A stretch of DNA of 49,959 bases. Origin: a virus. Position 1 is the first letter of the stretch. The number at the start of each line of letters is the position of its first letter. The stretch is taken from positions 1 through 49,959 of IMG/VR virus record IMGVR_UViG_3300028030_000014, one strand, 5' to 3'. The position numbers and the translations under genes were made by a program. The notes under the pieces were generated by a model that was given only the letters and a program-made list of their open reading frames with translations, made no database searches and was not told the DNA's origin. This document shows, piece by piece, positions 1 through 49,959 of the stretch.

Positions 1-242
1 TCATATCCGAACCCGTAGTCGTGAATATCACTGGCATTTACAGCATGGAAATATTCAGCCAATGGCCTTGCCATATAGCCACGGTTACAGGCTGGTTCAT
101 CAACCCGGTAATTCTGCCAGCAATCCCCGATCACATGCTCTATCAGCGCCCGCGTTGCCCAACAAGGGGTAGGGAAATCATCTAAACTGTCATGGGGTTC
201 ATGGCGCTGTTGCATCACTGCACTTGATGTGTTCTGTCTCAT
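1..242 (-). CDS. DNA N6-adenine methyltransferase, N-terminal part (gene continues at 49959)
   Basis: This is the first 80 codons plus two bases of a SAM-dependent DNA methyltransferase that is split by the window edge. The start ATG at 242 follows the stop of the upstream gene by one base and has a GGGG stretch in front; a second in-frame ATG lies at 215. Visible are an early DDFPTP segment (residues 21-26) and motif I, EPACNRG (49-55), the SAM-binding loop. The frame runs open off base 1 and continues in phase at 49959, where the catalytic NPPF motif is found. The joined protein is 206 aa. It follows the C5-type methyltransferase in the leftward early operon, so both probably modify phage DNA. 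The target sequence is unknown. Confidence 0.9.
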   Translation of the reverse strand, partial: MRQNTSSAVMQQRHEPHDSLDDFPTPCWATRALIEHVIGDCWQNYRVDEPACNRGYMARPLAEYFHAVNASDIHDYGFGY

Positions 243-243
243 G

Positions 244-837
244 CTAGCCCCATTGATCAGCCATAGCGGCGGCAATCCCTGGGAAAAACCGGCTGCGTTC
301 CTTTGCCCGGTCAGGTCCTGGCGGCATCCGATGAATCCGCTGTTCTCGCCCGTCAACAATGTTTGTCGGTTTCAGCTTTGGAAGATTGCGCAACCACAAA
401 CATGTCCGTTTTGTTTCCCCATGACCAAACTGCCATGGCTGTACAGACTGGGCCGGTGGCTGGTAATTAACGATCCGTTGCTTGGCATGCTTGTGCATTA
501 CCGGATTTTCAACCGCCACGCGATTGACTGGTGCATTCCACAAGATCGAGAATAATTCAGCACCGGCATCAAGTTCAGACCACATCTGTTGCAGGGTTTT
601 GTCTTGTGGCGGTTTGTGCAGCCAGCGAACCCCGGAATTGCACAATCTGGTGCATGGCGGATGCGCCACAATCAGCAAATCCCAGCCATCATCCAGAATG
701 TCTCTGACATCGCACTGATAATGCCGGTTGCTGCCATCCTCGGCAGGTAACAGATCACAAGACCAGGCATCATGCCCGCGATCAGCAAAGGCGCGCCGGA
801 CAATGCCGGAAAATTCACATGCTATTAATACCTTCAT
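244..837 (-). CDS. Phage C5-cytosine methyltransferase-like protein
   Basis: A 197-aa protein of a type common in phages. An N-terminal SAM-binding stretch (CEFSGIVRRAF, about 7-17) is followed by an acidic loop. It has a PPC motif at 60-62, which in C5-cytosine methyltransferases holds the nucleophilic cysteine, and an ENP at 110-112 matching the ENV motif. It is much shorter than bacterial C5 methyltransferases (300-400 aa) and no separate target-recognition domain is evident. It may therefore be non-specific, need a partner, or have a different activity. Its start overlaps the stop of the preceding gene (ATGA), so the two are probably translationally coupled. It lies directly before the adenine methyltransferase. 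Confidence 0.72.
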   Translation of the reverse strand: MKVLIACEFSGIVRRAFADRGHDAWSCDLLPAEDGSNRHYQCDVRDILDDGWDLLIVAHPPCTRLCNSGVRWLHKPPQDKTLQQMWSELDAGAELFSILWNAPVNRVAVENPVMHKHAKQRIVNYQPPAQSVQPWQFGHGETKRTCLWLRNLPKLKPTNIVDGREQRIHRMPPGPDRAKERSRFFPGIAAAMADQWG

Positions 838-1184
838 GCTATCCCCCTTGCCTTGATGTGCTCAATGGCTAGTGTGGTGCGGCCCATGTATTCAAGGGAT
901 TGTTTTTCAGCCCGTTCGCGGCGTTCACGCATTTCCCTCAATTCCTTCATGAGTTTACTTTCTGGCGGGTGAATGATTTTTTCAATGTCTGAAACATGTG
1001 GCCAGAATGGTGATTGCTTGCGGTGAATTTGCAGCGCCCGTAAAACATCATCAGGCTGGTAAACGTCCACCACATCATGCAGGAAGATGTTAATCAGGTC
1101 TCTGGAACCTGCTGATTGAAGTCTGCCGGTTGCTACCATTTCATAAACGATTCCGTTCAATGACTTTTTAACTGCGGTCCACAT
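834..1184 (-). CDS. Possible helicase-loader-like replication protein
   Basis: A 116-aa mostly helical protein. The segment HRKQSPFWPHVSDI (about 54-67) resembles the 'S-FWP-x-x-SDI' pattern seen in phage helicase loaders such as G39P and lambda P-like proteins. A charged, coiled-coil-like stretch rich in Glu and Arg follows. It overlaps the DUF1376 replication gene by 28 bases and would be its co-translated partner, as in O/P gene pairs. The start ATG has an AGGAGG ten bases upstream. The loader assignment is inference from position and a weak motif; only the reading frame and its ribosome site are seen directly. Confidence 0.62.
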   Translation of the reverse strand: MWTAVKKSLNGIVYEMVATGRLQSAGSRDLINIFLHDVVDVYQPDDVLRALQIHRKQSPFWPHVSDIEKIIHPPESKLMKELREMRERRERAEKQSLEYMGRTTLAIEHIKARGIA

Positions 1185-1918
1185 TGGATAACTGCCTCCT
1201 GTTTTATTTTTTCAAGTTCAATCGCCATTTGGTCGTTTTTCGATAACCTGCCGTTAACTTTGCCTTTCCAGTTTCTTATCCATGAATTGAAAGTTAGCTG
1301 CCAATTTAGCTTTGTCGCATTGGCGCCGGTCTTTGCCAACCAATAGTTTTTGAACTTCTGCAATTCATCATCGATTTCATCATCTGACATTCCTCGACTT
1401 AATGCGAATTGGATTTGCTTTTGATCAGGTTCAAAATCATCAGGGATTCTACATCCCCGCTTCTGCTTCTTTTTAGAGATAGGAACTATCTCTTTTTCTT
1501 CTTTTGGTTCTGGTTCTGGATAGCCTTTTTCTGGGTTAAGCGAAAATAACCCGCTGGGTTTGCTGTTTTCCTTGTCTTTCATATGTTTAGCTGGACGGCC
1601 ACCTTTTTTACCGTTCTCTCTTGCTGTTCTAGCTTTTGCTTGGGTTTTCTTATATTCCCGCATTTGACGCACTTGAAAAACCCGACCCTTTTCAGTTCTA
1701 AAGAACTCATCTATGACAGGTTTAACCACGGTTTCAAATGTCTCAACATCAACACGGACACGCTTCATAATCCATGCTTCATCATTGGGAATTGAGCATC
1801 CTGGAGTACGCCAGCAAAGCCTTAGCAGCCTGTTATAAGCGCCATCTTCTTCTATGGTAAGGTGAGTTGTATCAGCCTCGTAATCACTGACATAGAAGGG
1901 CATATAAGGTATGCTCAT
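1157..1918 (-). CDS. DUF1376-family phage replication protein (O-like)
   Basis: A 253-aa protein with an N-terminal DUF1376 domain. The opening segment YMPFYVSDYEADT and the following 'HLTIEEDGAYNRLLRLCW' are typical; the family is associated with replication initiation in phages. The middle (about 105-145) is a Lys/Pro/Glu-rich linker. The C-terminal third ends in a segment with NYW and NWQLTFNSWI, resembling the C-terminus of O-like proteins that contact the helicase loader. The frame also has a TTG at 1975, but the domain begins at the ATG at 1918, so I prefer that. No DNA polymerase or helicase is seen, so the phage should depend on the host replisome. Confidence 0.72.
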   Translation of the reverse strand: MSIPYMPFYVSDYEADTTHLTIEEDGAYNRLLRLCWRTPGCSIPNDEAWIMKRVRVDVETFETVVKPVIDEFFRTEKGRVFQVRQMREYKKTQAKARTARENGKKGGRPAKHMKDKENSKPSGLFSLNPEKGYPEPEPKEEKEIVPISKKKQKRGCRIPDDFEPDQKQIQFALSRGMSDDEIDDELQKFKNYWLAKTGANATKLNWQLTFNSWIRNWKGKVNGRLSKNDQMAIELEKIKQEAVIQCGPQLKSH

Positions 1919-2001
1919 TATTTTTGAACCGTTTCTGTTACCATCCGAAGGAAAAGAAAAGACGCGGCGGGCCAAAATCGGAAACGGTAACGATTTGGTT
2001 T

Positions 2002-2327: not shown

Positions 2328-2702
2328 TCATTGAATTATAGTTATTTCAAAGCCATATATCGCCTTGAACAGCTTCCGCGTCATGACAAAAGCATAAAGT
2401 CTTGCTGTAGCCGGTGATTTTACATCTTCAACAACCATCTTACGGGTTTTGTTGTCAATGTACCGAAAATCTGCCGTGTATATCTTAATCAGTTCACCGT
2501 TGACTGCTAGTCTGTATTTTGGGTGAACCTTTAGCCGTGATATTGCTCCAGCTTCTTGCCATTCCTGGAGATTTACATACCGGCTGCATTCAGCTTTTGA
2601 ATCGAACTTATGTCCGTCATAAACCACCTTGCACGCATTAAACTTATTGCGCTTTTTCGGTTTGAGGTTTTGGTATTGTTTAGCTGACATGCGGTTAGTC
2701 AT
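2328..2702 (-). CDS. DUF1064 nuclease-like protein
   Basis: A 124-aa protein of the DUF1064 family, a small PD-(D/E)XK-like group in phages, possibly a structure-specific endonuclease. Typical elements are KFDSKAE near residue 33, an 'ISRLKVHPKY' strand, YTADFRYID, and VVEDVK, where the D-x-E/D-x-K residues would form the metal site. The frame extends further upstream, but the ATG at 2702 has AGGAAAC directly ahead, and the overlapping HTH gene ends here, so I place the start at 2702. In this operon it may process replication or recombination intermediates; that role is inferred. Confidence 0.72.
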   Translation of the reverse strand: MTNRMSAKQYQNLKPKKRNKFNACKVVYDGHKFDSKAECSRYVNLQEWQEAGAISRLKVHPKYRLAVNGELIKIYTADFRYIDNKTRKMVVEDVKSPATARLYAFVMTRKLFKAIYGFEITIIQ

Positions 2703-2856
2703 CTTGTTTCCTATTGATCTTTGCCAGCCTGTTATAAACAACATGTTCTGGAACATGCAAGGCTAGCGCAATCTGCATTGTATCTTTCCCTGCATCCCAT
2801 AATGCCACCATTTCGCTTGTGAGTGGGGATATTGTGGGATTGTCGATCATTCGCAT
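2695..2856 (-). CDS. Small helix-turn-helix protein
   Basis: A 53-aa protein below usual length cut-offs. Residues LTSEMVALWDAGKDTMQIA then VVYNRLAKI look like a GcrA/sigma-like helix-turn-helix: a helix with a 'W-x-x-G' turn, then a recognition helix ending in 'V-Y-N-R-L'. It may act as a small DNA-binding regulator. Its start overlaps the stop of the PAPS-reductase-family gene (ATG at 2856, with a second ATG at 2850), and its end overlaps the start of the DUF1064 gene, so three genes are translationally linked. The reading frame is clear; the regulatory role is inferred. Confidence 0.65.
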   Translation of the reverse strand: MRMIDNPTISPLTSEMVALWDAGKDTMQIALALHVPEHVVYNRLAKINRKQDD

Positions 2857-3827
2857 AACCCATATAAACTTGAACAGATAAAAGCATCTTTGTCATTTTC
2901 TGTGAATAGATTAAATTGCCGCCCGCCCCGATCTGTTTTCGACCATTCTGCAACGTCCAGAATTGAGGGGTATGAGCCGTCTTGATTTTGGCTGTATGGC
3001 GTTTTATCGGCTGAAAAAAATGTTGATAGTCCTGTTTTTGAGGCATTAGCCACTAGCTTTTCCCATTCCGCTACTCGTTTAATTTCATTTGGAAACCTAG
3101 CGGCAATTTCCTTCAACTCGTTTTTACGGCACATAATACATGGCATACAACCAACCCTGCCCATCCCCATTTTATACAATGGATTTGGTTCAATTCCATG
3201 ATGCTTATGAATTGCAAAAACATCGGTTGCAGTTTTGTAAACCAACGGCCGGTATTTCAACAAGATACCAACCGGATCATACCAAGGGATTTTTTGGAAC
3301 ATTTCAAGGTTAGCACGTGCGCGGCTTTCATCCCGGCGTTCGCCTTGCCAAGAAACCACACCTTTATTTTGTTTGATCAAGTTAACCAAAATATGTTCAA
3401 TTGGCTTTGCCTTTAGTTCTTCTGTGCAAAACCTTGCGCGGGTAGATGGAAAGCGGCCCTTTAGCATACACATGTCAAGAAAGGGGTTTCCTGTTGGCAT
3501 TAGCAACTCTAATGCCTGATCAATACGTTTTTGTGATATACCTGCATCAGCCCATTTATTCTCAATTGTCCGGCGCTTTTTGTTGATACGAGCGGTAAAG
3601 TCAGCCTTTACTACCACCACTTCCGGCCCGCCCGTGATTGTTGGCAGGTTTCTAATATACTCATATGTGAGCGGGTGTTCATGGCCTGTATCGGCTGTCA
3701 CCGCCAGAAAGTCCATACCGGTGCGTTCCCTGCGCTCTAACGCCAACAAATAACAAGCGGTGCTATCTTTACCGCCCGATATGTTTACAACATGTGGAAT
3801 GGATAAAGTGGATTTTAAGTCGCTCAT
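2847..3827 (-). CDS. Phosphoadenosine phosphosulfate reductase-family protein
   Basis: A 326-aa PP-loop ATPase-type protein. SGGKDS at residues 17-22 is the nucleotide-binding PP-loop of the adenine nucleotide alpha-hydrolase fold. RARFCTEELK in the middle is the segment typical of PAPS reductase-family proteins in phages. A C-terminal cysteine cluster, CMPCIMC, could bind iron-sulfur or zinc. Family members reduce PAPS, or in DndC relatives help put sulfur into the DNA backbone. No other Dnd genes are seen here, so DNA phosphorothioation is not supported. A role in sulfur supply or nucleic acid modification is possible. The start overlaps the preceding gene (ATGA). Confidence 0.82.
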   Translation of the reverse strand: MSDLKSTLSIPHVVNISGGKDSTACYLLALERRERTGMDFLAVTADTGHEHPLTYEYIRNLPTITGGPEVVVVKADFTARINKKRRTIENKWADAGISQKRIDQALELLMPTGNPFLDMCMLKGRFPSTRARFCTEELKAKPIEHILVNLIKQNKGVVSWQGERRDESRARANLEMFQKIPWYDPVGILLKYRPLVYKTATDVFAIHKHHGIEPNPLYKMGMGRVGCMPCIMCRKNELKEIAARFPNEIKRVAEWEKLVANASKTGLSTFFSADKTPYSQNQDGSYPSILDVAEWSKTDRGGRQFNLFTENDKDAFICSSLYGLCE

Positions 3828-4730: not shown

Positions 4731-5240
4731 ATGTCACAAGTTAAGTTTAAACTCACCAGTAAAACAAAAACATGGTTTGGTAAAACCCTTTTCCAGATTG
4801 AAGCCCTGATTGATTTTGGCAATATCAAAAAAGGTGATATGGGCGGCTGGATTGAAAAAGAGGGGAACCTTAGTCAAGGTGGCAATGCGTGGGTATATGG
4901 CGATGCGTGGGTATATGGCGATGCGTTGGTATCTGGCGATGCGCGGGTATCTGGCGATGCGCGGGTATCTGGCGATGCGCGGGTATCTGGCGATGCGCGG
5001 GTATCTGGCGATGCGCATTATATCCAAATCAGCCCTATTGGATCAGAAAATTCCACATTCACCGCCTTTATTGAAAAAGATGGAACTATCAGATGCACAA
5101 GAGGCTGTTTTAACGGAACTCTTGATGAATTTGCCGCCGCCGTTGAAAAAACGCACGGCAACAACAAACATGGTGATGCTTACTGGGCTGTGATTGCCCT
5201 TGTTAAAGCCCGCCTTGATACGTCTGTAGTTGAGGATTAG
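4731..5240 (+). CDS. Phage protein with left-handed beta-helix (GDARVSG) repeats
   Basis: A 169-aa protein. An N-terminal domain (about 1-50) includes GDMGGWIEKEGNLS. Residues 53-94 are seven hexapeptide repeats, A-x-V-x-G-D. Hexapeptide repeats of this kind form a left-handed beta-helix, seen in acyltransferases and in many phage proteins of unknown role. No acyltransferase catalytic histidine can be assigned. A C-terminal domain of about 75 residues ends in an acidic tail. It is the first gene of the rightward operon, with AGGAG ahead of the ATG. The repeats are almost identical at DNA level, so copy number may vary between isolates. Confidence 0.72.
   Translation: MSQVKFKLTSKTKTWFGKTLFQIEALIDFGNIKKGDMGGWIEKEGNLSQGGNAWVYGDAWVYGDALVSGDARVSGDARVSGDARVSGDARVSGDAHYIQISPIGSENSTFTAFIEKDGTIRCTRGCFNGTLDEFAAAVEKTHGNNKHGDAYWAVIALVKARLDTSVVED
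4887..5012 (+). repeat. Seven tandem 18-bp coding repeats
   Basis: Seven in-frame 18-base units of the form gcg-x-gg-gta-t-x-t-ggc-gat. The first two are identical to each other, the third is a hybrid and the last four are identical, which points to recent tandem duplication. Each unit encodes A-(W/L/R)-V-(Y/S)-G-D. Confidence 0.95.
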
Positions 5241-6556: not shown

Positions 6557-6721
6557 ATGACGCAAGAGACAGAACAGGCAATCGCAGGAATTGAAATTGA
6601 CATTTCCCGGCTGAAAAACCGTCCCGATATTAGCGATTACTTCAATGATATTATGTCACTGTCACAAAGCCTTGTTGACTTAGCCTCGTCAACTTTGGAG
6701 CCTTCAAATGAAAATCACTAA
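6557..6721 (+). CDS. Small hypothetical protein upstream of the exonuclease
   Basis: A 54-aa protein (MTQETEQAIAGIEIDISRL...) that is helical and acidic. GAGAGAG precedes the ATG, and its end overlaps the start of the exonuclease gene by 14 bases, which suggests translational coupling. No family recognised. Confidence 0.55.
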   Translation: MTQETEQAIAGIEIDISRLKNRPDISDYFNDIMSLSQSLVDLASSTLEPSNENH

Positions 6722-7559
6722 CAAACTGAACCTTCCCGCCGCTTTGGTTACTGCAATCTCAAATGACACCTATACACCGGGGGAAAAGACAGATATGTCA
6801 GTTACTACTTTATTGCGCCCCCCCCGCGCTGTTGCCCTTGCCAAGGCTCACAGCAATGAATTAACAGAAGATGCAGCCGACCGCATATGGGCTTTATTGG
6901 GTCAAGCAACCCATTCTATTCTTGAACGGGCTGGCGATGAAACCGCAATCACTGAAAAGCGTTTCTATGCACCTGTAAGCGGTTGGAATATATCAGGCCA
7001 GATTGACCGGTATGAAAAAACCTCATGCACTATTCAGGATTGGAAGATCACAAGCGCCTATGTAGTGAAATCATATCAGAAAGGCGAAAAAACAGAATGG
7101 GCAGAACAGCTTAACATGCTGGCTTACCTTATGCAACAATCAGGCTATGAGGTTAAAGCCCTGCAAGTGGTTGCTATCTTGCGCGACTGGTCAAAACTTA
7201 ATGTTTTACGTGATCTTGATTACCCTCGGTTTCAGGTTGCAACCATTACCCTGCCTTTATGGCCAAGGGAAAAGACCCTGGAGTTTATGCAAGATCGAAT
7301 CAGCAAGCATCAAGCCGCGCGTCAAACCTTGCCGGAATGCACACCAGATGAACAATGGGCAAAGCCTGATTCCTATGCTGTAATGAAAGAAGGGCGCAAA
7401 TCTGCGTTGCGTGTCTTGTCAACAAAAGAAGATGCTGAAACATGGATAAGCGAAAACGCCACGGCTGGTAAAATTTCAATTGATTACCGCCCCGGTGTTA
7501 AAACCAGATGCAATAGTTATTGCTCCGCTGCCCCGTTCTGTGACCAATGGAAAGATTGA
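6708..7559 (+). CDS. RecB/Cas4-like PD-(D/E)XK exonuclease
   Basis: A 283-aa nuclease of the RecB-like PD-(D/E)XK type. The catalytic core is visible as SGQID (about 101-105) and IQDWKIT (about 113-119), the D...D-x-K metal site. A helix with 'EQLNMLAYLM' then follows, where Q/Y residues are usual in this fold. The C-terminus carries RCNSYCSAAPFC, three closely spaced cysteines like those of Cas4/AddB clusters, but no clear fourth one, so an iron-sulfur cluster is uncertain. The Rad52-like annealing gene follows directly. The pair matches a phage exonuclease plus annealing-protein recombination system comparable in role to lambda Exo/Beta. Confidence 0.8.
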   Translation: MKITNKLNLPAALVTAISNDTYTPGEKTDMSVTTLLRPPRAVALAKAHSNELTEDAADRIWALLGQATHSILERAGDETAITEKRFYAPVSGWNISGQIDRYEKTSCTIQDWKITSAYVVKSYQKGEKTEWAEQLNMLAYLMQQSGYEVKALQVVAILRDWSKLNVLRDLDYPRFQVATITLPLWPREKTLEFMQDRISKHQAARQTLPECTPDEQWAKPDSYAVMKEGRKSALRVLSTKEDAETWISENATAGKISIDYRPGVKTRCNSYCSAAPFCDQWKD

Positions 7560-7561
7560 AA

Positions 7562-8233
7562 ATGATAGACATGAAAGAATTATCAGCCCCGTTCAACCCT
7601 GATAAGGTTCATTGGCGCGTAGGGTCAACAACAAAAGACAATAGCAAAGGTTTAGCCCTTGCATATCTTGACGCCCGTGATGTTCAAGATAGGCTTGATA
7701 ACGTGTGTGGCGTTGAAAACTGGCAATCAGATTATATTGACGCTGGCAATGGCAAGACCTGTTGCCGGATCGGAATCAAAATCGGTGATGAATGGATATG
7801 GAAAGCAGATGGAGCCGGTGACACAGCTATTGAAGGCGACAAAGGGGCTTTTTCTGATGCCTTCAAACGCGCTGCTGTATCATGGGGAATCGGCAGATAT
7901 TTATACCGATTAGAAAATATATGGGTAGCACTTTCCCCAATGGGCAAGTCATATAAGATTGCAGATTCAGAAAAGGCAAAGTTGGCAAGGTTTCTCGGCA
8001 ATATGCCCGCCCCAGGCACAGCAAAGCCAGCGGTTTCAGAAGATGACAGCCAAAAGGTTTTGAGCAAATACAAACGCGGCATTGATGATATTCTTGAAAA
8101 CGGCACGCTTGACGATCTAAACACATGGGGAAAAGACATTGCAACAGACAGCGTAAAGATGACGGTTGATCACGTTGAGAAATTGCGAAAAAAGTTTAAG
8201 GAAGCGCATTCGACAATGAAACAAAAAGGCTGA
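7562..8233 (+). CDS. Rad52/22-like single-strand annealing protein
   Basis: A 223-aa protein with the conserved Rad52/Rad22 core: an N-terminal VHWRVGSTT and LAYLDARDVQDRLD, then GDKGAFSDAFKRAAVSWG and IGRYLY, the most characteristic stretch of the family. Members anneal complementary single strands during phage recombination. The C-terminal part is a lysine-rich helical tail, possibly for contacts with DNA or the phage SSB. An ATG at 7547 overlaps the exonuclease gene, but the ATG at 7562 has GGAAAG seven bases ahead, so I prefer it. Confidence 0.85.
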   Translation: MIDMKELSAPFNPDKVHWRVGSTTKDNSKGLALAYLDARDVQDRLDNVCGVENWQSDYIDAGNGKTCCRIGIKIGDEWIWKADGAGDTAIEGDKGAFSDAFKRAAVSWGIGRYLYRLENIWVALSPMGKSYKIADSEKAKLARFLGNMPAPGTAKPAVSEDDSQKVLSKYKRGIDDILENGTLDDLNTWGKDIATDSVKMTVDHVEKLRKKFKEAHSTMKQKG

Positions 8234-39583: not shown

Positions 39584-41032
39584 CTAATTCTGATCGGGCG
39601 GCAGGTCTGTGATTGCAGCCTCATTACCGCCCGGTAATTCGTTTATGATTTCTTCTGCATCTGCTTCTTCATCATAGCTCGGCCCCAACACGCCCCGGCG
39701 CTTATATTCGCCTACAAGTGTTGCGCGGGAAATATCCCCTGCCTTACGCGCCTTATCCAAAGCGTCAAGATGCTCTTTAACAGATGTGCCGACATCAAAA
39801 TCTGTGAACACAAAGATTTCAGGCGTTTCAGGCTTGCCCATCCATAAGGAAGTAAGCCGCCATGCATTCTCAAGTGTGCTTTGCAGGTTGATAGCCCATT
39901 GCTGCGCCGCTGTATTGGCCTTCTTTGAAGCAAATGCCGCTGCAATAACTGTAATATTGTTTGAACCGGCTGTAAGTGGCTGGTTGCCTAATTCTCTTAA
40001 CTGAGCCTCGATGCTTTCAAGTCTGGATTGGACAAAAGTATTGGATTCGCCACTAGGTTCAAGCAATTCATACTTGCCATATTTGCCTTCAGCATTCATG
40101 GGTGTGTATGCAACCCGCATCGGCCCGACCGGGAATGGTTTTGGTTTGCCATCAGCCCCAGTTTCAGGCGTTACACCGTGACCAACTATCATCACATAGC
40201 AGGACATGTTGATTTTATATTCAAGCCCGGAATCAGTTCTGAAGTGGTGAATTTGCAAATCAGCGCAAGCACGCATTGGCGGGATAACTTCCCAACTTGC
40301 GCCAACCCGTTCGCCGGTTAAGAATGGAACAATCGGGATTTCGTCAATGCCAAGTTCGCCGTTTTCTTGTGAAGTCCATTCATCCTTGATCTTTTTGAAC
40401 ACTTCAAATGTCGGCTTTGCATACCCGACTGTGTTACCGTCTGCATCTGTGAGCCGTTCGCGGTTAAACACCCTTATCTGCTTGACTGTCTTTTCAGCCA
40501 ACCCGTCAACCATGGTTACTTCTTCGAAAAAGCGGAAATGTGTAAAGACTTCCTGCCCGTCTACATAATCTGTAGCAACGGCTATGACCTTGGTTGCGGG
40601 TATGTTCAGCCAATAAGGGCGGGTTTTCGCCTTCATGGCTTTAGGGGCATCAACCAGCACCCATTCAATAGCATGTGTAATGCCGCGCCGGAATATTGAA
40701 GCTGCAAATTTGCTTTGTGTAGTTCCGGCCCCGTCCACATTGTCCTGCATATCAATCAGGTCTTGCGATGCTGTGCCCTCAATGAAGTCAACAGGTTTTG
40801 AGAACGGTCTGCTTGATAGTGAGGTGATAATATCCCCGAATATGTCTGTATATGGTGCCGTTGACCACCGGACCTTATAAGCTGCTGCGCTTTCAGCCTC
40901 AAACTTTGGCAGGAAAGCATCATGCGCCGCCCGCATTGCGTCCGTGCCACCTATAAGGGCATCAACCTTTGTCCAATATGGCAACATTGCCACTTGTGAA
41001 CTCCAGCGAGCGTCTATCTTGTTTTCACTCAT
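39584..41032 (-). CDS. Portal protein (DUF4055 type)
   Basis: A 482-aa protein of the DUF4055 portal family: RWSTAPYTDIFGDII near the N-terminus, 'IPIVPFLTGERVGASW' in the middle, 'DLQIHHFRTDSGLEY' next, and an 'ANTAAQQWAINLQSTLENAWRL' helix (given here as QQWAINLQSTLENAW), then an acidic tail. It forms the ring through which DNA enters the head. The start overlaps the terminase stop (ATGA). Confidence 0.84.
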   Translation of the reverse strand: MSENKIDARWSSQVAMLPYWTKVDALIGGTDAMRAAHDAFLPKFEAESAAAYKVRWSTAPYTDIFGDIITSLSSRPFSKPVDFIEGTASQDLIDMQDNVDGAGTTQSKFAASIFRRGITHAIEWVLVDAPKAMKAKTRPYWLNIPATKVIAVATDYVDGQEVFTHFRFFEEVTMVDGLAEKTVKQIRVFNRERLTDADGNTVGYAKPTFEVFKKIKDEWTSQENGELGIDEIPIVPFLTGERVGASWEVIPPMRACADLQIHHFRTDSGLEYKINMSCYVMIVGHGVTPETGADGKPKPFPVGPMRVAYTPMNAEGKYGKYELLEPSGESNTFVQSRLESIEAQLRELGNQPLTAGSNNITVIAAAFASKKANTAAQQWAINLQSTLENAWRLTSLWMGKPETPEIFVFTDFDVGTSVKEHLDALDKARKAGDISRATLVGEYKRRGVLGPSYDEEADAEEIINELPGGNEAAITDLPPDQN

Positions 41033-42675
41033 GAATATGTTCCAAACATTGCAACAGGAGCGGCTTTTTCAGGCACGGGCCAGTAAGCCATAACAACAGC
41101 ATCAGCGATGTTAGGCGAAACCGTGCCTTCTGGTGTTTTGTTTACCATCAATTTTAACCGCCCGCTGTGTGTCTTTGTGGCTTGACTTAATTCTTTTATG
41201 AGAGTTGCCAAATTATCTATATTGCCATCGATGCTTATTAACTCATCATGAGGGAATTTTATGCCATGAACTACATATCTATAGGTTTTCTCAAACCGGC
41301 GCCGCAGCTCCCACCAACCTTGTGCTTTAAGGTTTTCGTAGAAATCGCTGTTTATGGGTGTATCTGGATCATCCTCAATTATATTCTGCTTAGGGTTAAG
41401 AACGCCAGCCGCAGCACTCCATGGCGTGAACTTTACCCCGGACGGGATTAACCCTTCATCTTTAAGCCTGTTTGCTTCCGCCTTTACACCGGCTCCAATA
41501 CCAATGCAGTCATACTGTAAGTTGATTGTGCCAACATCTCGACATTCTGCTAGAGCGTTTCTGGTTGTTACGCCAGTATCACGCTCACCCCAAACCCGTG
41601 TAGATTTTAGAACAATGCCTTTTCGCTTAACAAGAGCGTTCTTGTCTAAGCCTTCATCTGCAACATCAAGCCCCGCCAGCCACAAGCCACTATCTGAAAT
41701 ACCAAGTTTCTTGTGAGCATCAACCGCCGCGTTAATCCAAAGCGCCGGAATAATGACACCTTCTACAGATGCGGAATAATCCCTATCAACTTCTTGAGCG
41801 AAAACATGTACCAGGCCATCACTTTCAGCCTTTGCCCGTCTTTCGTCATACCATTCTTGCGTTTTGTGTGGATGATCGCGCCAGTCCATTACAAACACAT
41901 TAGATTGACCTTTTGCCAAAGGTTTACCCGGTATCCACTCCCGCCCGCTTTCGCGCCGCCGCTGGAACACATTACCAAGCCCGTTAACAGATGAAATATC
42001 AATCTGAACCCTTGTATTATCTGCTAGTGCAGCCTCAATCTTTTCAGGGCGGTCATAATGTGCGGCCTCGTCTTTGAAGTAAATCAATGAACGGCCACCG
42101 CGCCCGATATTATCCCCGCTTTCACCCCTAACCGTTGAACTATTGGCAGGATTGATCAGCTTCATGTATGATGAATGCTGCTTTTCATTAAAACCCACAG
42201 GTAAAAACAAATCAGGCAGCCCAGTTATAACCAGCCTGATCTTTTCAAAGATTGAATCAGGATCGCCAATCTTGTCTACAAGCTGCTCTTTCCTGGAACC
42301 CCAGCCAATCGCAGAACCCGGAACAAATAACCAAAGCCAAACAGTAAACCCAACAGAAGCCCATGTTGCGCCCATATCGCGCGACTTTTCAATAAGACCG
42401 TTTTGTTCCTCCAAAACACATTGATGTAGAAACTTGATTAACTCTACCTGTTTTGGGAAAAGTATAAACGGCAACCTGACAGGCATATCCTTGCCGGCAT
42501 TGCGCGGGTCATACGTATCAACCCAATGTGATATAAACTCTACAGGATGCGTTCTGTAATATTCCAGCGCCCCAACCGCCAAGACAGTATCTTGTTTGAA
42601 TTGCTCAAGCCGCTTTTGTCGCCATGCAAACACTGCAACATAATCAACAGGCCAGCCAAAAGGGTTATTTTTCAT
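41029..42675 (-). CDS. terL: Terminase large subunit
   Basis: A 548-aa packaging motor. The ATPase part has [10 protein letters not shown] (96-105) as the Walker A-like motif and LIYFKDEAA (197-205) as Walker B. The RNase-H-like nuclease domain starts at about 330, with acidic residues in [15 protein letters not shown] and a late [10 protein letters not shown]. It overlaps the small subunit and portal genes. Together with a P22 gp3-like small subunit it supports headful packaging from a pac site. Confidence 0.92.
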
Positions 42676-43162
42676 TCAGTGAATTAAGATAGGCCGCTGC
42701 CGCTTCTTTTGGCGTCATCTTAGAGGTAATCAATTCAACTGGTCCGCCATCCTTACCAGTAACTTCACTCTTATCAGCAAGCCCTAGATCACGGGCAATG
42801 ATGTTAGGGTTAAGCAGGTCTGCCGCCGCTCCGGTGAACTTCTGATCCCTGATTATTTGTTCCACCTGCGTAATGATAGAAGATAAATCTTTTCTGCGCA
42901 CGCGCCAATCGTGCCATGCAGTCATGGTTATATTTAAGAACAAACATAGCCCGCCTAATGTCATGGCTCGCATTCTGCTAACAGACTCATGAGTTGCTGT
43001 GCCTTGAAAAGTCACTAGTTTATCTTCGTATAATGGATTGGCGTCTACCCATTCAAAATATTCAACACAAGCGTTCCATAGATCATCTGGATTTGCAAAT
43101 TTAGGATTTGCGCCATGTGAACTTCGCGCCATCCAGAACTTGTTTCCTTTTGGTGCTGCCAT
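42665..43162 (-). CDS. terS: Terminase small subunit (P22 gp3-like)
   Basis: A 165-aa protein that closely follows the P22 gp3-type pattern: a [10 protein letters not shown] start, [32 protein letters not shown] and [22 protein letters not shown] (split as [19 protein letters not shown]). These proteins recognise the pac site and start headful packaging. The start at 43162 has AAGGA ahead; the frame is open to 43195. It is the first structural-operon gene and lies just after a 430-base non-coding region. Confidence 0.88.
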
Positions 43163-43343
43163 TTTTATTCCTTTAGGCTTTCTGATAGCTACCAACGCCT
43201 ATTATGACGCTGGTGTGAGCTGTTTGTACGCGTGGCACATCAGCTATGAATTGGCAGAGGGTTGTTTTCGCGCCGTATCCCTCCAAGCTGCGCCGAGGTC
43301 TTTCCCGTCATGTCATTTGCATGCAGTCCGCGTAATCTGCTAA

Positions 43344-44828: not shown

Positions 44829-44878
44829 ACATACAAAGGCCGGTCCTAGTGATCGCTAACAGCTTTGGAGAGAATGAA

Positions 44879-46174
44879 ATGACCAACACGCACAATCACA
44901 ACGTCCCGGCCTTGAAAAAGAACATTGCTGGTATTGTTGCTGAATATGATGAAAAGTATGCCGCCATTGATGATGAAATAAAGGCTTTTGAGGAATCCAT
45001 AACGCGGATTGAATATCAAACCACCGTTGCCGGCCAGTATGTCGGCGCAATATTCAGAAAACCTTATATCCACAAGTCAACACTTGAAACTAATCTGCTA
45101 AAGTCAGCATGGCAGTATGTTTTCAAGCGGCTTAATCTCGAAATTATCGCCAGCGCAAAAGACAAAAAAGAATTTGAATTGGCAATTCAAGACCCTCCAC
45201 CATTTACGCTAGATAATATCATAGCAACTTTCGGTGATTATGTCGAACAGCCCCGCTACCATATCCTGAAAGGACTGGCCGAATGTTTCTGCGATCTAGA
45301 TCAGGCGTATAAATCACACAGCAAGGTCAAGATTGGCGTTGAAGGTTTGCCAAAACGGATTATTCTATCAAATGTCACTGGATATGGATCATGGGGACGG
45401 CAGAAGGCTGAGGACACATTAAATGCCATTAACGCATACGATAGCAAACCGTTGATCGGGTATGGTGAATGCTCAAAATTACTTGAAGGGGCAGTTGGTG
45501 AAGATGTTGAATATCGCGGAACGACTATTCGTCGATATAAGAATGGTAATGCACACCTGATATTTTCCCCTGATCGCTTGCGTTCAATCAACTTGGCATT
45601 GGCTGAGTTTTATGGCGATGTGCTGCCAGATACACCAGATGAATCTCCAAAGAAACAGCAAAGCACCGCCGTATCAAAAGATTTGCAATTCTACCCAACG
45701 CCAACGGTTGTAATTGATCGTGTATTAGATGAGCTGGCTTTTTACGATAGCGACCGGGTTCTTGAGCCATCTTGTGGCGATGGTCGAATCCTGGAAGCCT
45801 TGGCAAAACTTCCATATCAGCTTAGAGGACTTGGAGTTGAAGTCAACGCAGAACGGGCCACACAAGCACGCGAAAAAGGTTTCAAAGTGTATGAAGCCAA
45901 TTTTCTTGAAGTGGCACCGAAGCCGGATTTTGACAAAATCATAATGAACCCGCCGTTTTATGGCACACACTGGGCAAAGCACGTTGACCATGCAATGAAA
46001 TTTCTAAAACCGGGCGGCACTCTATTATCAATTCTACCGGCATCTGCTTATTACGATCACCGTAAATTGCTTCCAAAAGGATCGCGTTGGCATGATTTAC
46101 CAGTTGCATCATTTCATGAAAGCGGAACGAATATCCCAACTGGATATATTATAGTAATAAATGGAGACTATTGA
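44879..46174 (+). CDS. DUF4942 domain-adenine methyltransferase fusion
   Basis: A 431-aa protein. Residues 1-260 are a DUF4942-type region (helical N-terminus, then RLRSINLALAEFYGDVLP near its end). From about 275 a SAM-dependent adenine methyltransferase domain starts: FYPTPTVVIDRVL, motif I VLEPSCGDGR (294-303) and the catalytic NPPF (357-360). It ends with strands but no clear target-recognition domain, so DUF4942 may supply specificity. The start ATG at 44879 has GGAG nine bases ahead. An XRE gene follows immediately. It is the third DNA methyltransferase of this phage. Confidence 0.82.
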   Translation: MTNTHNHNVPALKKNIAGIVAEYDEKYAAIDDEIKAFEESITRIEYQTTVAGQYVGAIFRKPYIHKSTLETNLLKSAWQYVFKRLNLEIIASAKDKKEFELAIQDPPPFTLDNIIATFGDYVEQPRYHILKGLAECFCDLDQAYKSHSKVKIGVEGLPKRIILSNVTGYGSWGRQKAEDTLNAINAYDSKPLIGYGECSKLLEGAVGEDVEYRGTTIRRYKNGNAHLIFSPDRLRSINLALAEFYGDVLPDTPDESPKKQQSTAVSKDLQFYPTPTVVIDRVLDELAFYDSDRVLEPSCGDGRILEALAKLPYQLRGLGVEVNAERATQAREKGFKVYEANFLEVAPKPDFDKIIMNPPFYGTHWAKHVDHAMKFLKPGGTLLSILPASAYYDHRKLLPKGSRWHDLPVASFHESGTNIPTGYIIVINGDY

Positions 46175-46476: not shown

Positions 46477-46508
46477 AAACCCTGCACAGCTGCAACCGTG
46501 CAGGGTTT
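46477..46508 (-). terminator. Terminator of the leftward early operon
   Basis: AAACCCTGCAC and GTGCAGGGTTT form a perfect 11-base inverted repeat around a ten-base loop. Read leftward it is followed by TACTTTT, a modest T-tract. With the plus-strand terminator 18 bases away it separates the two convergent transcripts. Confidence 0.68.
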
Positions 46509-46806
46509 CAAGAGGCTACCGGAGGGCTTAAGTAACATTCCAACTCATCCGGTAGTGTTTGCTCAAGCGGAGCAATTGTGGTTTGCATAGGCAGGACGCT
46601 ATACCTGCTTGACGGTTTCACCCTAACTCTAGCCGCCGGTTTCGCCGCGCTCCGTTTAGGTTTAGGGCGCGATCTACTCCATTTCAATCCCTGCGCTTCT
46701 GCTTTCAGCGCCGCTATGCAAATTACAGAACTACTATAGCAATAATTAGTAATGTGTGCAAGGTAGTAAAGCCTCATATAATTATTGTCCGTGAGGCTTA
46801 TCGGAC
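46509..46806. other. Region between SSB gene and terminators, no firm gene
   Basis: A minus-strand frame of 89 codons (46508-46777) is open, but it has no ribosome site and a biased, Arg/Lys/Pro-rich composition. Its start lies inside a hairpin. AAGCCTCA and TGAGGCTT (46769-46799) form an eight-base stem just after the SSB gene, possibly an mRNA 3' end or processing site. I call no gene here. Confidence 0.5.
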
Positions 46807-47286
46807 TTAATTAAAAGGGACTTGGTCATTCAAATCATTAGGAGACGCCACCCGCTGCCCGTTGTCATAGGTTTCACCTCGTACTGGCTGCGCGACCTTT
46901 TCCCCGCTTACATAGGTGCCAGTTTGATCACTGCCCTTGCCATCCAACATGATCAGCTTGCCGCCAAAGCCTTGTAGAACGATTTCAGTGCTATATTTTT
47001 CAACGCCGGACTGATCCGTCCATTTGCGGGTTTGTAGCGAACCCTCAATCATTACCCGCGAGCCTTTATGCAGGTACTGTTCAGCAATATTAGACAGCGG
47101 TTCCGAAAAAATAACTACCCTATGCCATTCCGTCCGCTCTTTCTTTTCGCCCGTGTTCTTGTCTTTCCAGCTTTCTGACGTTGCGATGCTGAGATTGGCG
47201 ATCTTGCGACCATCCTGGGTGTGTCGGATATCCGGGTCATTGCCCAAATGTCCGATAAGTGTTACCCGGTTTAATGAAACTGCCAT
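46807..47286 (-). CDS. ssb: Single-stranded DNA-binding protein
   Basis: A 159-aa SSB. The OB-fold is clear: MAVSLNRVTLIGHLGNDPDI, FSEPLSNIAEQYLHKGSRV and 'EGSLQTRKWTDQSGVEKY'. A flexible linker follows and the C-terminus is NDQVPFN. The usual acidic tail (DDDIPF) that binds partner proteins is weakened, and an Asn follows the Pro-Phe. It coats single-stranded DNA in replication and in the Rad52/exonuclease pathway. It is the last clear gene of the leftward early operon. Confidence 0.92.
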   Translation of the reverse strand: MAVSLNRVTLIGHLGNDPDIRHTQDGRKIANLSIATSESWKDKNTGEKKERTEWHRVVIFSEPLSNIAEQYLHKGSRVMIEGSLQTRKWTDQSGVEKYSTEIVLQGFGGKLIMLDGKGSDQTGTYVSGEKVAQPVRGETYDNGQRVASPNDLNDQVPFN

Positions 47287-47507
47287 TATTCTGTCCCTTC
47301 CAAATATGCCTTGCGTTGCTTGTAAACTGCTGGTGGACGCCCTACGCCGTTCTTGGCACGGATTTTAACCAGATCATCGCCGGAGTATTTATTCCGCGAC
47401 CTGATTTGTATTTTCTGAACTGGTGGCCGTGGCATTTCAGCCAACATTGACGTGCCAAATTCAAGCATGAAGCGTATATGTGTATCATAACCGCCATAAC
47501 CAATCAT
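47286..47507 (-). CDS. Hypothetical early protein
   Basis: A 73-aa basic protein that directly precedes and overlaps the SSB start. The C-terminal part is basic (IQIRSRNKYSGDD and GVGRPPAVYKQRKAYL) and may bind nucleic acid. Unknown family. Confidence 0.6.
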   Translation of the reverse strand: MIGYGGYDTHIRFMLEFGTSMLAEMPRPPVQKIQIRSRNKYSGDDLVKIRAKNGVGRPPAVYKQRKAYLEGTE

Positions 47508-47725
47508 TATTCTGATTCCTTATTGGTGAATGTTATTGAGCCATGAAAGTCTTTGAAGTTTTCCATGTCATAATATTCTTCCTCAAACCCATACGTCAGA
47601 TTAACGCCTTTTCCATGCTCAGAAAATAGGACAATTTCGCCTCCTGTATTATCCTCTATTATTTTCTCCATTAATTTTGGATATTCAAACTGCTTTTCAG
47701 TCACGTTCTTTTTTACTTCAATCAT
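47507..47725 (-). CDS. Hypothetical acidic early protein
   Basis: A 72-aa acidic protein (FSEHGKGVNLTYGFEEEYYD). It overlaps its neighbours by one to four bases. The acidic, compact sequence might mimic DNA or bind basic partners; this is only an impression. Not recognised. Confidence 0.6.
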   Translation of the reverse strand: MIEVKKNVTEKQFEYPKLMEKIIEDNTGGEIVLFSEHGKGVNLTYGFEEEYYDMENFKDFHGSITFTNKESE

Positions 47726-48075
47726 TGTGTTGTTTCCTTTTCATACTCTTGAGCCGGTGCCTGTTCTGCCTTGGAATTGTGGCCGATCATAGACGGTTCT
47801 GGATGTTCGCGCGCCGCAATCCGTTTTTGAATGTCGCGCTGGTAGTCTTTTTCATGTGCAATAAAGGCGTCAAAAGCCATTGTAATCCGCATCTGAACCG
47901 CGTTCAAGGTGGTTGTGATAACTTCTGCCAATTCGGCTGCGGATTCCTTCATTGAACTTTCATAGTCAAGACTTTCATCAAGCTTTGAATGCAAATCTGA
48001 CAGTTCCGCAATCATCTGCGTTTCAATTTTGTTAATATCTGACTTGACTTTTGTTAGGTCTTTCATGGTTGGCAT
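47722..48075 (-). CDS. Coiled-coil early protein
   Basis: A 117-aa helical protein. Residues 5-90 have long heptad-like runs (INKIETQMIAELSDLHSKLDE). The C-terminus has a conserved-looking SMIGHNSKA, a short phrase that recurs in phage proteins of Alphaproteobacteria. The start at 48075 has AAGGAAG ahead; the frame is open upstream without a site. Function unknown. Confidence 0.62.
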   Translation of the reverse strand: MPTMKDLTKVKSDINKIETQMIAELSDLHSKLDESLDYESSMKESAAELAEVITTTLNAVQMRITMAFDAFIAHEKDYQRDIQKRIAAREHPEPSMIGHNSKAEQAPAQEYEKETTQ

Positions 48076-48103
48076 TGTCTTGCTTCCTTTCGTGTTGTGG
48101 TTT

Positions 48104-48283
48104 TCATATGTTGCAATTTGAAACTTTGTCGTAAGCATCAATGACACGGGTATAACCCAACTCCCGAAGCAATCTGCGCAATACATAGTCAGCCCGGAAT
48201 GGTGCCATGTCAACATTCTTGCTTTTCTGCAAGCGGGTTAAAATGGCAATTGAATCTTGTGAAAGTTCTTTGTTGATTTTCAT
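48104..48283 (-). CDS. Small hypothetical protein
   Basis: A 59-aa helical protein (MKINKELSQDSIAILTRLQ...) with a basic centre (FRADYVLRRLLRELGY). GAGG lies nine bases ahead of the ATG. It is between the DnaA-like and coiled-coil genes. Not recognised. Confidence 0.58.
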   Translation of the reverse strand: MKINKELSQDSIAILTRLQKSKNVDMAPFRADYVLRRLLRELGYTRVIDAYDKVSNCNI

Positions 48284-48288
48284 CTTTT

Positions 48289-48855
48289 TTACCTCTGCTT
48301 TGGGAACATGGATTCCATCTTGGTATTGATAGGGTTTAGGATTTCTGAAAAATCATAAATCGGATAACCCTTATTGCATTTTATGCCTGTAAGATGTGCG
48401 TTAACAGCACTGACACCGTGCATGACTGTGGTATGATCACGTTTAATCTTGCGCCCGATTTCAGGATATGACAAGTTTGTGTATGTGTATAAAAGCCAGC
48501 ACACAACCTGCCGCGCCCTTGCCAAGCGGTTAAACCGGCGCTTTGACACAATTTCAGGCCATAAGTATCCCAAATAATCATAGCAATTATCCCGGATGAA
48601 TTCGGAAGCCTTGTTACGAGCCTTAATCTGCATCGCAAGCTTTCGCTTATAGTCGTAATCATCATCAGCAATGATTTTTTCATAGTATTTCAGGATATGG
48701 TCTTTGTAGTTGTGAGGCGTCATTACCGCCTTTGCCTTGCGCGGGGTTTTGGCGGGTTTTAGGGATGACTTTGGTATACCTGCCCATAAATTAGCCCTTG
48801 CCGCACTGTACCTGGCTAAATAAGAAGATTTGACGGGGTTTTGCGTTGTTTGCAT
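48289..48855 (-). CDS. Stand-alone DnaA domain IV-like DNA-binding protein
   Basis: A 188-aa protein without the AAA+ part of DnaA. The C-terminal half holds the DnaA domain IV helix-turn-helix: ARARQVVCWLLYTYTNLSYPEIG then KIKRDHTTVMHG (split here), with the DnaA-signature D140-H-T-T-V-M-H146. This domain binds 9-base DnaA boxes. The N-terminal half is basic. It may compete with host DnaA, or mark the phage origin. I chose the ATG at 48855 because AGGAG lies eight bases ahead; ATGs at 48861 and further out fit less well. Confidence 0.82.
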   Translation of the reverse strand: MQTTQNPVKSSYLARYSAARANLWAGIPKSSLKPAKTPRKAKAVMTPHNYKDHILKYYEKIIADDDYDYKRKLAMQIKARNKASEFIRDNCYDYLGYLWPEIVSKRRFNRLARARQVVCWLLYTYTNLSYPEIGRKIKRDHTTVMHGVSAVNAHLTGIKCNKGYPIYDFSEILNPINTKMESMFPKQR

Positions 48856-48866
48856 GTCCATAACTC

Positions 48867-49298
48867 CTAACTGACTAAACATGATGTATGATTACAATAT
48901 GATTTTGTCCGGCATCTTTGGCACATGCGATTGTGTGGACCTTCTGAATCAAAGATACAGCCGCAGGTAATGCACCATCTTTTTTCGGTCGGGTTATCGT
49001 GATAAGATTTCACGATCCGGTATTTTGTTGCACGATTGCCAGCATTAGAATGCGGTGCTGTCTGCTTGCCGGTTTTTATAAAAACGTAATAAGGATTTTT
49101 CGCCTTGATATATTTGATCAACCCTTCATTTTTTAATATGCGTACTGACTTCCACACTTGAGGTTTTTTAATGCCCAATGCAGCGGCTATGTCTGCCCCT
49201 GTTCCAGCCGGTTTGTCGTTTTCGGCACAATAAATAAGATAATCATAAACCTTATTTCGGTTTTTTGTCGTGATAGGTTTAACTCTCTCGTATTTCAT
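48867..49298 (-). CDS. Winged-helix and zinc-ribbon protein
   Basis: A 143-aa protein. Residues 12-75 look like a winged helix-turn-helix (GTGADIAAALGIKKPQVWKS, then LKNEGLIKYI). The C-terminus has C109-x2-C112 and C126-x2-C129, a zinc ribbon, followed by two more cysteines. It likely acts as a DNA-binding regulator or replication accessory. It overlaps its neighbour by four bases. Confidence 0.68.
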   Translation of the reverse strand: MKYERVKPITTKNRNKVYDYLIYCAENDKPAGTGADIAAALGIKKPQVWKSVRILKNEGLIKYIKAKNPYYVFIKTGKQTAPHSNAGNRATKYRIVKSYHDNPTEKRWCITCGCIFDSEGPHNRMCQRCRTKSYCNHTSCLVS

Positions 49299-49564
49299 GA
49301 CTTGCTCTCTTGTGTTGCTTTGCTTACGATAGCTTTTGTTTCTTGACGCAAGTCAACCATATAACCAATAAGATCACAACATTGCTCTTTAGTAATATCA
49401 CTCACCGCTGTAATGGCTACAAAAGCACTGCCAAGTATTGCGGTTGCCATTGTATTGGCATCATCGTTATATTTTTGAGCCAACTCATATGCTAAATCAA
49501 TAATCTTGTTTGCATCTTCTGCGCCAACATATCCGTATTCTTTGCCTTGTGTTGTTTTACTCAT
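49295..49564 (-). CDS. Hypothetical early protein
   Basis: An 89-aa helical protein. The start at 49564 has AAAGGAAAG ahead; the frame reaches 49588 but that part overlaps the methyltransferase end. A central stretch (TMATAILGSAFVAITAV) is hydrophobic. No family recognised. Confidence 0.62.
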   Translation of the reverse strand: MSKTTQGKEYGYVGAEDANKIIDLAYELAQKYNDDANTMATAILGSAFVAITAVSDITKEQCCDLIGYMVDLRQETKAIVSKATQESKS

Positions 49565-49580
49565 GTTCTTTCCTTTTCTG

Positions 49581-49959
49581 TTAATCATAGTCGCCCGGAC
49601 GCTCCAGCCGCTTGCGGCAGGGGGGAATCCATGTAAAGCGGGTTTTGTTGTCGCTGTCGCATTTGTTCCAGACCAGCCAGCAATAAGCGGTGGCGGTCGA
49701 TCCAGTTTTGGTAACGTGACCTTTATGCAAAACTACCCGTTCACTGAATTGAGCAATTATTGACGGCGGATTGACGTTAAACAGGCGTTCATATCGGCCA
49801 ATGCTTTCAAGAAAAGCCGATCGCACAAACATTGCAACACCAACAGTTGAGCGATCGCGCGCCATTTCAATGAACTGCTCTGCAAGTTTGAATGGCGGGT
49901 TTGTAATTGTCCAGTCTGCTTTAGGTTGGTTGCTGCCGGGATACAGATAATCCCTGACA
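49581..49959 (-). CDS. DNA N6-adenine methyltransferase, C-terminal part (gene starts at 242)
   Basis: The last 125 codons plus one base of the methyltransferase that begins at 242 and crosses the window edge. The catalytic motif NPPFKLAEQF (residues 101-110 of the joined 206-aa protein) is here, preceded by ADWTIT. 'FVRSAFLES', a 'RYERLF' segment and a 'CWLVWNKC' strand follow. No target-recognition domain is visible. The base at 49959 completes the codon opened by bases 2 and 1 (GA plus T, Asp 81). Confidence 0.9.
   Translation of the reverse strand, partial: VRDYLYPGSNQPKADWTITNPPFKLAEQFIEMARDRSTVGVAMFVRSAFLESIGRYERLFNVNPPSIIAQFSERVVLHKGHVTKTGSTATAYCWLVWNKCDSDNKTRFTWIPPCRKRLERPGDYD

Follow-up and report, generated by a model that had tools for sequence, protein, structure and literature searches.

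The window, which is the whole stretch of DNA analysed and the entire virus record IMGVR_UViG_3300028030_000014 (49,959 bases), carries parts of a DNA methyltransferase gene at both of its ends, on the minus strand. Read across the ends, these parts form one gene, here called the junction methyltransferase gene:

1 to 242, minus strand: 5' part of the junction methyltransferase gene, with its ATG at 242-240, codons 1-80 and the first two bases of codon 81; profile positions 196-269 of phrog_799
49581 to 49959, minus strand: 3' part of the same gene, from the last base of codon 81 to the stop at 49583-49581; profile positions 273-392 of phrog_799

The methyltransferase gene across the record ends

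Codon 81 is split, with "GA" read before the frame leaves at base 1 and "T" read from base 49959, giving GAT, and the joined open reading frame (ORF), read from the letters, encodes 206 amino acids. A motif I-like DEPACNRG lies in its first half and TNPPF in its second; these are the two motifs (EPACNRG and NPPF) that an earlier note, made from the sequence alone, had placed in the end frames, and we find them in order and both regions conserved in the alignment. The joined gene also matches the dense packing of its neighbours, since the upstream gene stops at 244 and the downstream gene begins at 49588.

In separate PHROGs searches both halves hit phrog_799 (DNA methyltransferase), the first ending at profile position 269 (E 9e-15) and the second starting at 273 (E 2e-28), i.e., the halves occupy adjoining, ordered and non-overlapping parts of the same profile (269/273). 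The joined protein matches this family at E 1.3e-49 over residues 5-204, with the motif I-like sequence followed by NPPF, and comparison with phage methyltransferases retrieves intact homologues covering 100% of it in Sinorhizobium/Rhizobium phages: phiLM21 (63% identity), RHph_N28_2 (62%) and RHph_Y25 (62%). The relationship to these phages is local only, the TerL (terminase large subunit) of phiLM21 being 29% identical to that of the window over part of the protein. In phiLM21 the methyltransferase homologue lies between the repressor and the terminase, in one transcription direction, whereas none of the window genes was identified as a repressor. No Pfam or NCBIfam model matches the joined protein, and phmmer against the PDB found nothing with it. 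A structure prediction that used a set of homologues instead of the joined protein, at moderate confidence (predicted local distance difference test, pLDDT, 69), yields a fold resembling METTL5 and M.TaqI, itself a match of moderate confidence; this predicted fold, with the NPPF motif, makes adenine (N6) a plausible target base.

The join sits in a loop that connects the motif-I half to the NPPF half and is poorly ordered in the predicted model of a homologue. Homologues at two loci (L070, the nearest of the relevant relatives, and L072), 59% identical to the joined protein, have no gap within 8 residues of the join, and a more distant set (L005 and L007-L012) aligns over it ungapped, with GFGYDVKDFL against GFGY/DVRDYL in the window, the slash marking the join.

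The continuity of the frame is, by itself, modest to weak evidence that the ends adjoin. Phage genomes are gene-dense, and long open frames are therefore often seen over random joins: in 45% of these one of the frames stays open for 249 codons or more from stop to stop, as long as the one here, and in 7% the open stretch covers 80 or more codons ahead of the join and 120 or more behind it. Frame length was dropped as proof of joined ends, similar frames arising in 7 to 45% of random joins depending on the criterion, and it is thus homology and gene order that carry the case for closure.

Gene order around terL and packaging

The terminase genes, from which we compared gene order, are:

42665 to 43195, minus strand: terminase small subunit (TerS), P22 gp3 type (PF16677, 3p9a, phrog_606)
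41029 to 42675, minus strand: TerL, related to 9NA-like TerL

The loci searched are those carrying a relative of the window TerL, each extending at most 10 kb from its recruiting match, so that more distant placements are invisible; L042 and L044 are identically spaced, as are L070 and L072, and the members of these pairs are not independent. Within 10 kb of TerL, all homologues of the window-end genes lie upstream (14 loci, 4-9 kb away), and all but one are on the TerL strand. They comprise homologues of the cytosine-5 (C5) methyltransferase (L042, L044, L086, L098, L131, L145), of the DUF1376 protein at 4-7 kb (L030, L047, L060), of the DnaA-like gene (L057), and of the junction methyltransferase (L070, L072, L093 and, on the opposite strand, L069). 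Phages of the L070/L072 pair carry a TerL 61% identical to that of the window, with the methyltransferase 4.4 kb upstream of it. In addition, L134 has a C5 methyltransferase that is followed, at a distance of 1.2 kb and with the same orientation, by a junction-type methyltransferase; phage homologues of the DnaA-like neighbour (48289-48882) are too few for a synteny test. The window-end genes lie 7-10 kb upstream of terL on a circle, and on a linear reading the left-end genes lie ~40 kb downstream of it. The gene order of the relatives is reproduced by the circle only, and the window ends must therefore be neighbours.

The proposal that the terminase is P22 gp3-like holds for the small subunit, which matches PF16677 (E 1e-26; 93 bits vs a cut-off of 29) and the P22 gp3 structure 3p9a (E 2.6e-54) and is ~64% identical to the P22/Lederbergvirus protein over residues 12-145. 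It does not extend to TerL, whose best matches are not P22-like and which groups instead with that of Salmonella phage 9NA (46% identity over 95%); the comparison with P22 is limited to the terminase. The same pairing of a TerS of the type of the podophage P22 with a 9NA-like TerL is seen in L030, L042 and L044. Like the phage of the window, 9NA is tailed, has a genome of ~50 kb and assembles into a single circle; it is reported to use pac/headful packaging, its virion DNA giving a pac fragment (PMC4153490). The two are distant at the protein level, and the packaging results are those of 9NA.

Headful packaging of circularly permuted DNA is likely to be the cause of the assembly closure, because the TerS is of the gp3 type and the TerL is related to that of a pac-headful phage. 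By analogy, the gp3-type TerS would make the first cut in a concatemer close to its pac site, and the motor would take in a little over one genome length of DNA, leaving no fixed physical end at base 1 or 49959; the virion DNA would be circularly permuted and terminally redundant, and its assembly would close. Circularity through cohesive ends or fixed direct terminal repeats is an unlikely alternative to headful permutation given these terminases, although closure of an assembly cannot by itself separate permutation from fixed direct repeats, as was stated for 9NA (PMC4153490).

Completeness and alternative explanations

The ends encode consecutive parts of one predicted protein, and the gene order of relatives requires them to be adjacent. 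The earlier note had claimed that the two end frames are one gene and that the ends join into a complete circular genome; the first claim agrees with the 206-residue join through GA and T, the family match, the intact relatives and the gene order, and the same family matching, relatives and order around terL argue for a closed assembly. Judged from sequence, the record is almost certainly the complete ~50-kb genome of a tailed phage, its assembly closed to a circle, opened arbitrarily inside the methyltransferase gene and stripped of its end overlap. Head, packaging, tail and lysis genes are all present (TerS, TerL, portal, scaffold, capsid, head morphogenesis, adaptor, major tail protein, tape measure, holin and endolysin), and the size of 50 kb is comparable to that of relatives deposited as circular (RHph_TM26 and Pam3, 54.5 kb each). 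No integrase was seen in a scan that covered part of the ORFs, and megablast of bases 1-25000 found nothing among annotated phages.

Several observations weigh against this conclusion. No exact repeat, even one of 1-3 bp, is common to the two ends. For CheckV to count such a genome as closed, its ends must repeat at least 20 bp (PMC8116208), and the record has no direct terminal repeat of that length. Contigs that short-read assemblers build from circular templates usually end in a repeat of k-mer length (PMC8116208); here it is missing, and trimming or a different assembler has to be assumed, i.e., the overlap was trimmed or never left by the assembler. The base-exact fit of the ends suggests a deliberately closed assembly. 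An exact 27-bp pattern spanning the junction was unmatched in viral contigs, near-identical records of which may lie outside the searched set. Finally, the loop at the join differs by 1-14 residues in length in some relatives, so that gain or loss of a few whole codons there is conceivable; the claim that nothing was gained or lost at the split codon thus agrees with the ungapped alignments and is qualified by this variability, zero change being the best and a well-supported reading of the sequence.

If an insertion sequence (IS) element, intron or homing cassette interrupted the methyltransferase gene and the ends flanked an unassembled segment of an incomplete contig, the lost insertion would likewise yield two in-frame halves. 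We consider this very improbable: no target-site duplication is seen at the ends, the aligned relatives carry no insert at the join other than the short loop, and a rare insertion leaving a perfect codon would be needed. That the ends belong to two different copies or strains of the gene, joined by coincidence on a linear fragment, has next to no probability even though random joins with long open frames are not rare, since the halves are complementary, ordered and without overlap in the phrog_799 profile, the sole other phrog_799 match seen (a 441-residue protein) is weak, and the gene order of relatives independently needs the ends as neighbours.

The leftward early block and the meaning of closure

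Closure of the genome brings together the following genes on either side of the join:

2847 to 3827, minus strand: PAPS-reductase-like protein, head of the leftward early block
2328 to 2756, minus strand: DUF1064 nuclease (Holliday-junction-resolvase-like)
1157 to 1975, minus strand: DUF1376/DnaT-like primosomal protein, with the homologues upstream of terL given above
244 to 837, minus strand: DNA methyltransferase directly upstream of the junction gene, of cytosine-5 type by annotated relatives (phrog_757, E 1e-64; relatives up to 81%)
48289 to 49588, minus strand: three overlapping genes immediately downstream of the junction gene (49588-49295; 49298-48867, winged-helix-like; 48882-48289, weakly DnaA-like)
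46508 to 48216, minus strand: distal early genes of the block, including SSB (46807-47286)

The restored order would thus be PAPS reductase, DUF1064, DUF1376, C5 methyltransferase, junction methyltransferase, winged-helix, DnaA-like and SSB, in a putative block running from ~3.8 kb through the join to 46.5 kb, with the 441-residue methyltransferase and then the terminase genes beyond. The tight, overlapping same-strand genes fit the proposed single leftward early operon, but a terminator-like hairpin lies at its putative head. This strong hairpin (4422-4395, minus strand; 12 bp followed by CTTTTTTT) is flanked by a weak promoter-like site (4498-4471) on one side and the first leftward early genes on the other, and could be an attenuator or antitermination target.

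The 441-residue protein (44849-46174, plus strand) has a DUF4942 and then a methyltransferase domain and is the third methyltransferase of the genome; its gene is oriented against both the early block and the terminase genes. On the plus strand we also find an ORF (4731-5240; phrog_7964) with several in-frame 18-bp tandem repeats at 4862-5034 encoding the 6-residue unit GDARVS, and adjoining genes for an exonuclease and an Erf-like annealing protein (6708-8233), a typical phage recombination pair.

The finding is a routine annotation point that helps in judging completeness and gene order. It allows a record lacking end repeats to count as a complete genome, of a kind that end-repeat tests overlook when the overlap has been trimmed, and it restores one intact methyltransferase gene where automatic annotation would call two truncated ones. 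It also reveals the leftward early block as continuous across the join, and since the genome is complete, statements on absent genes become meaningful. At most, and tentatively, the combination of a P22 gp3-type TerS, a 9NA-type TerL and a leftward early block with two adjacent methyltransferases might make this the founding complete genome of a new genus.
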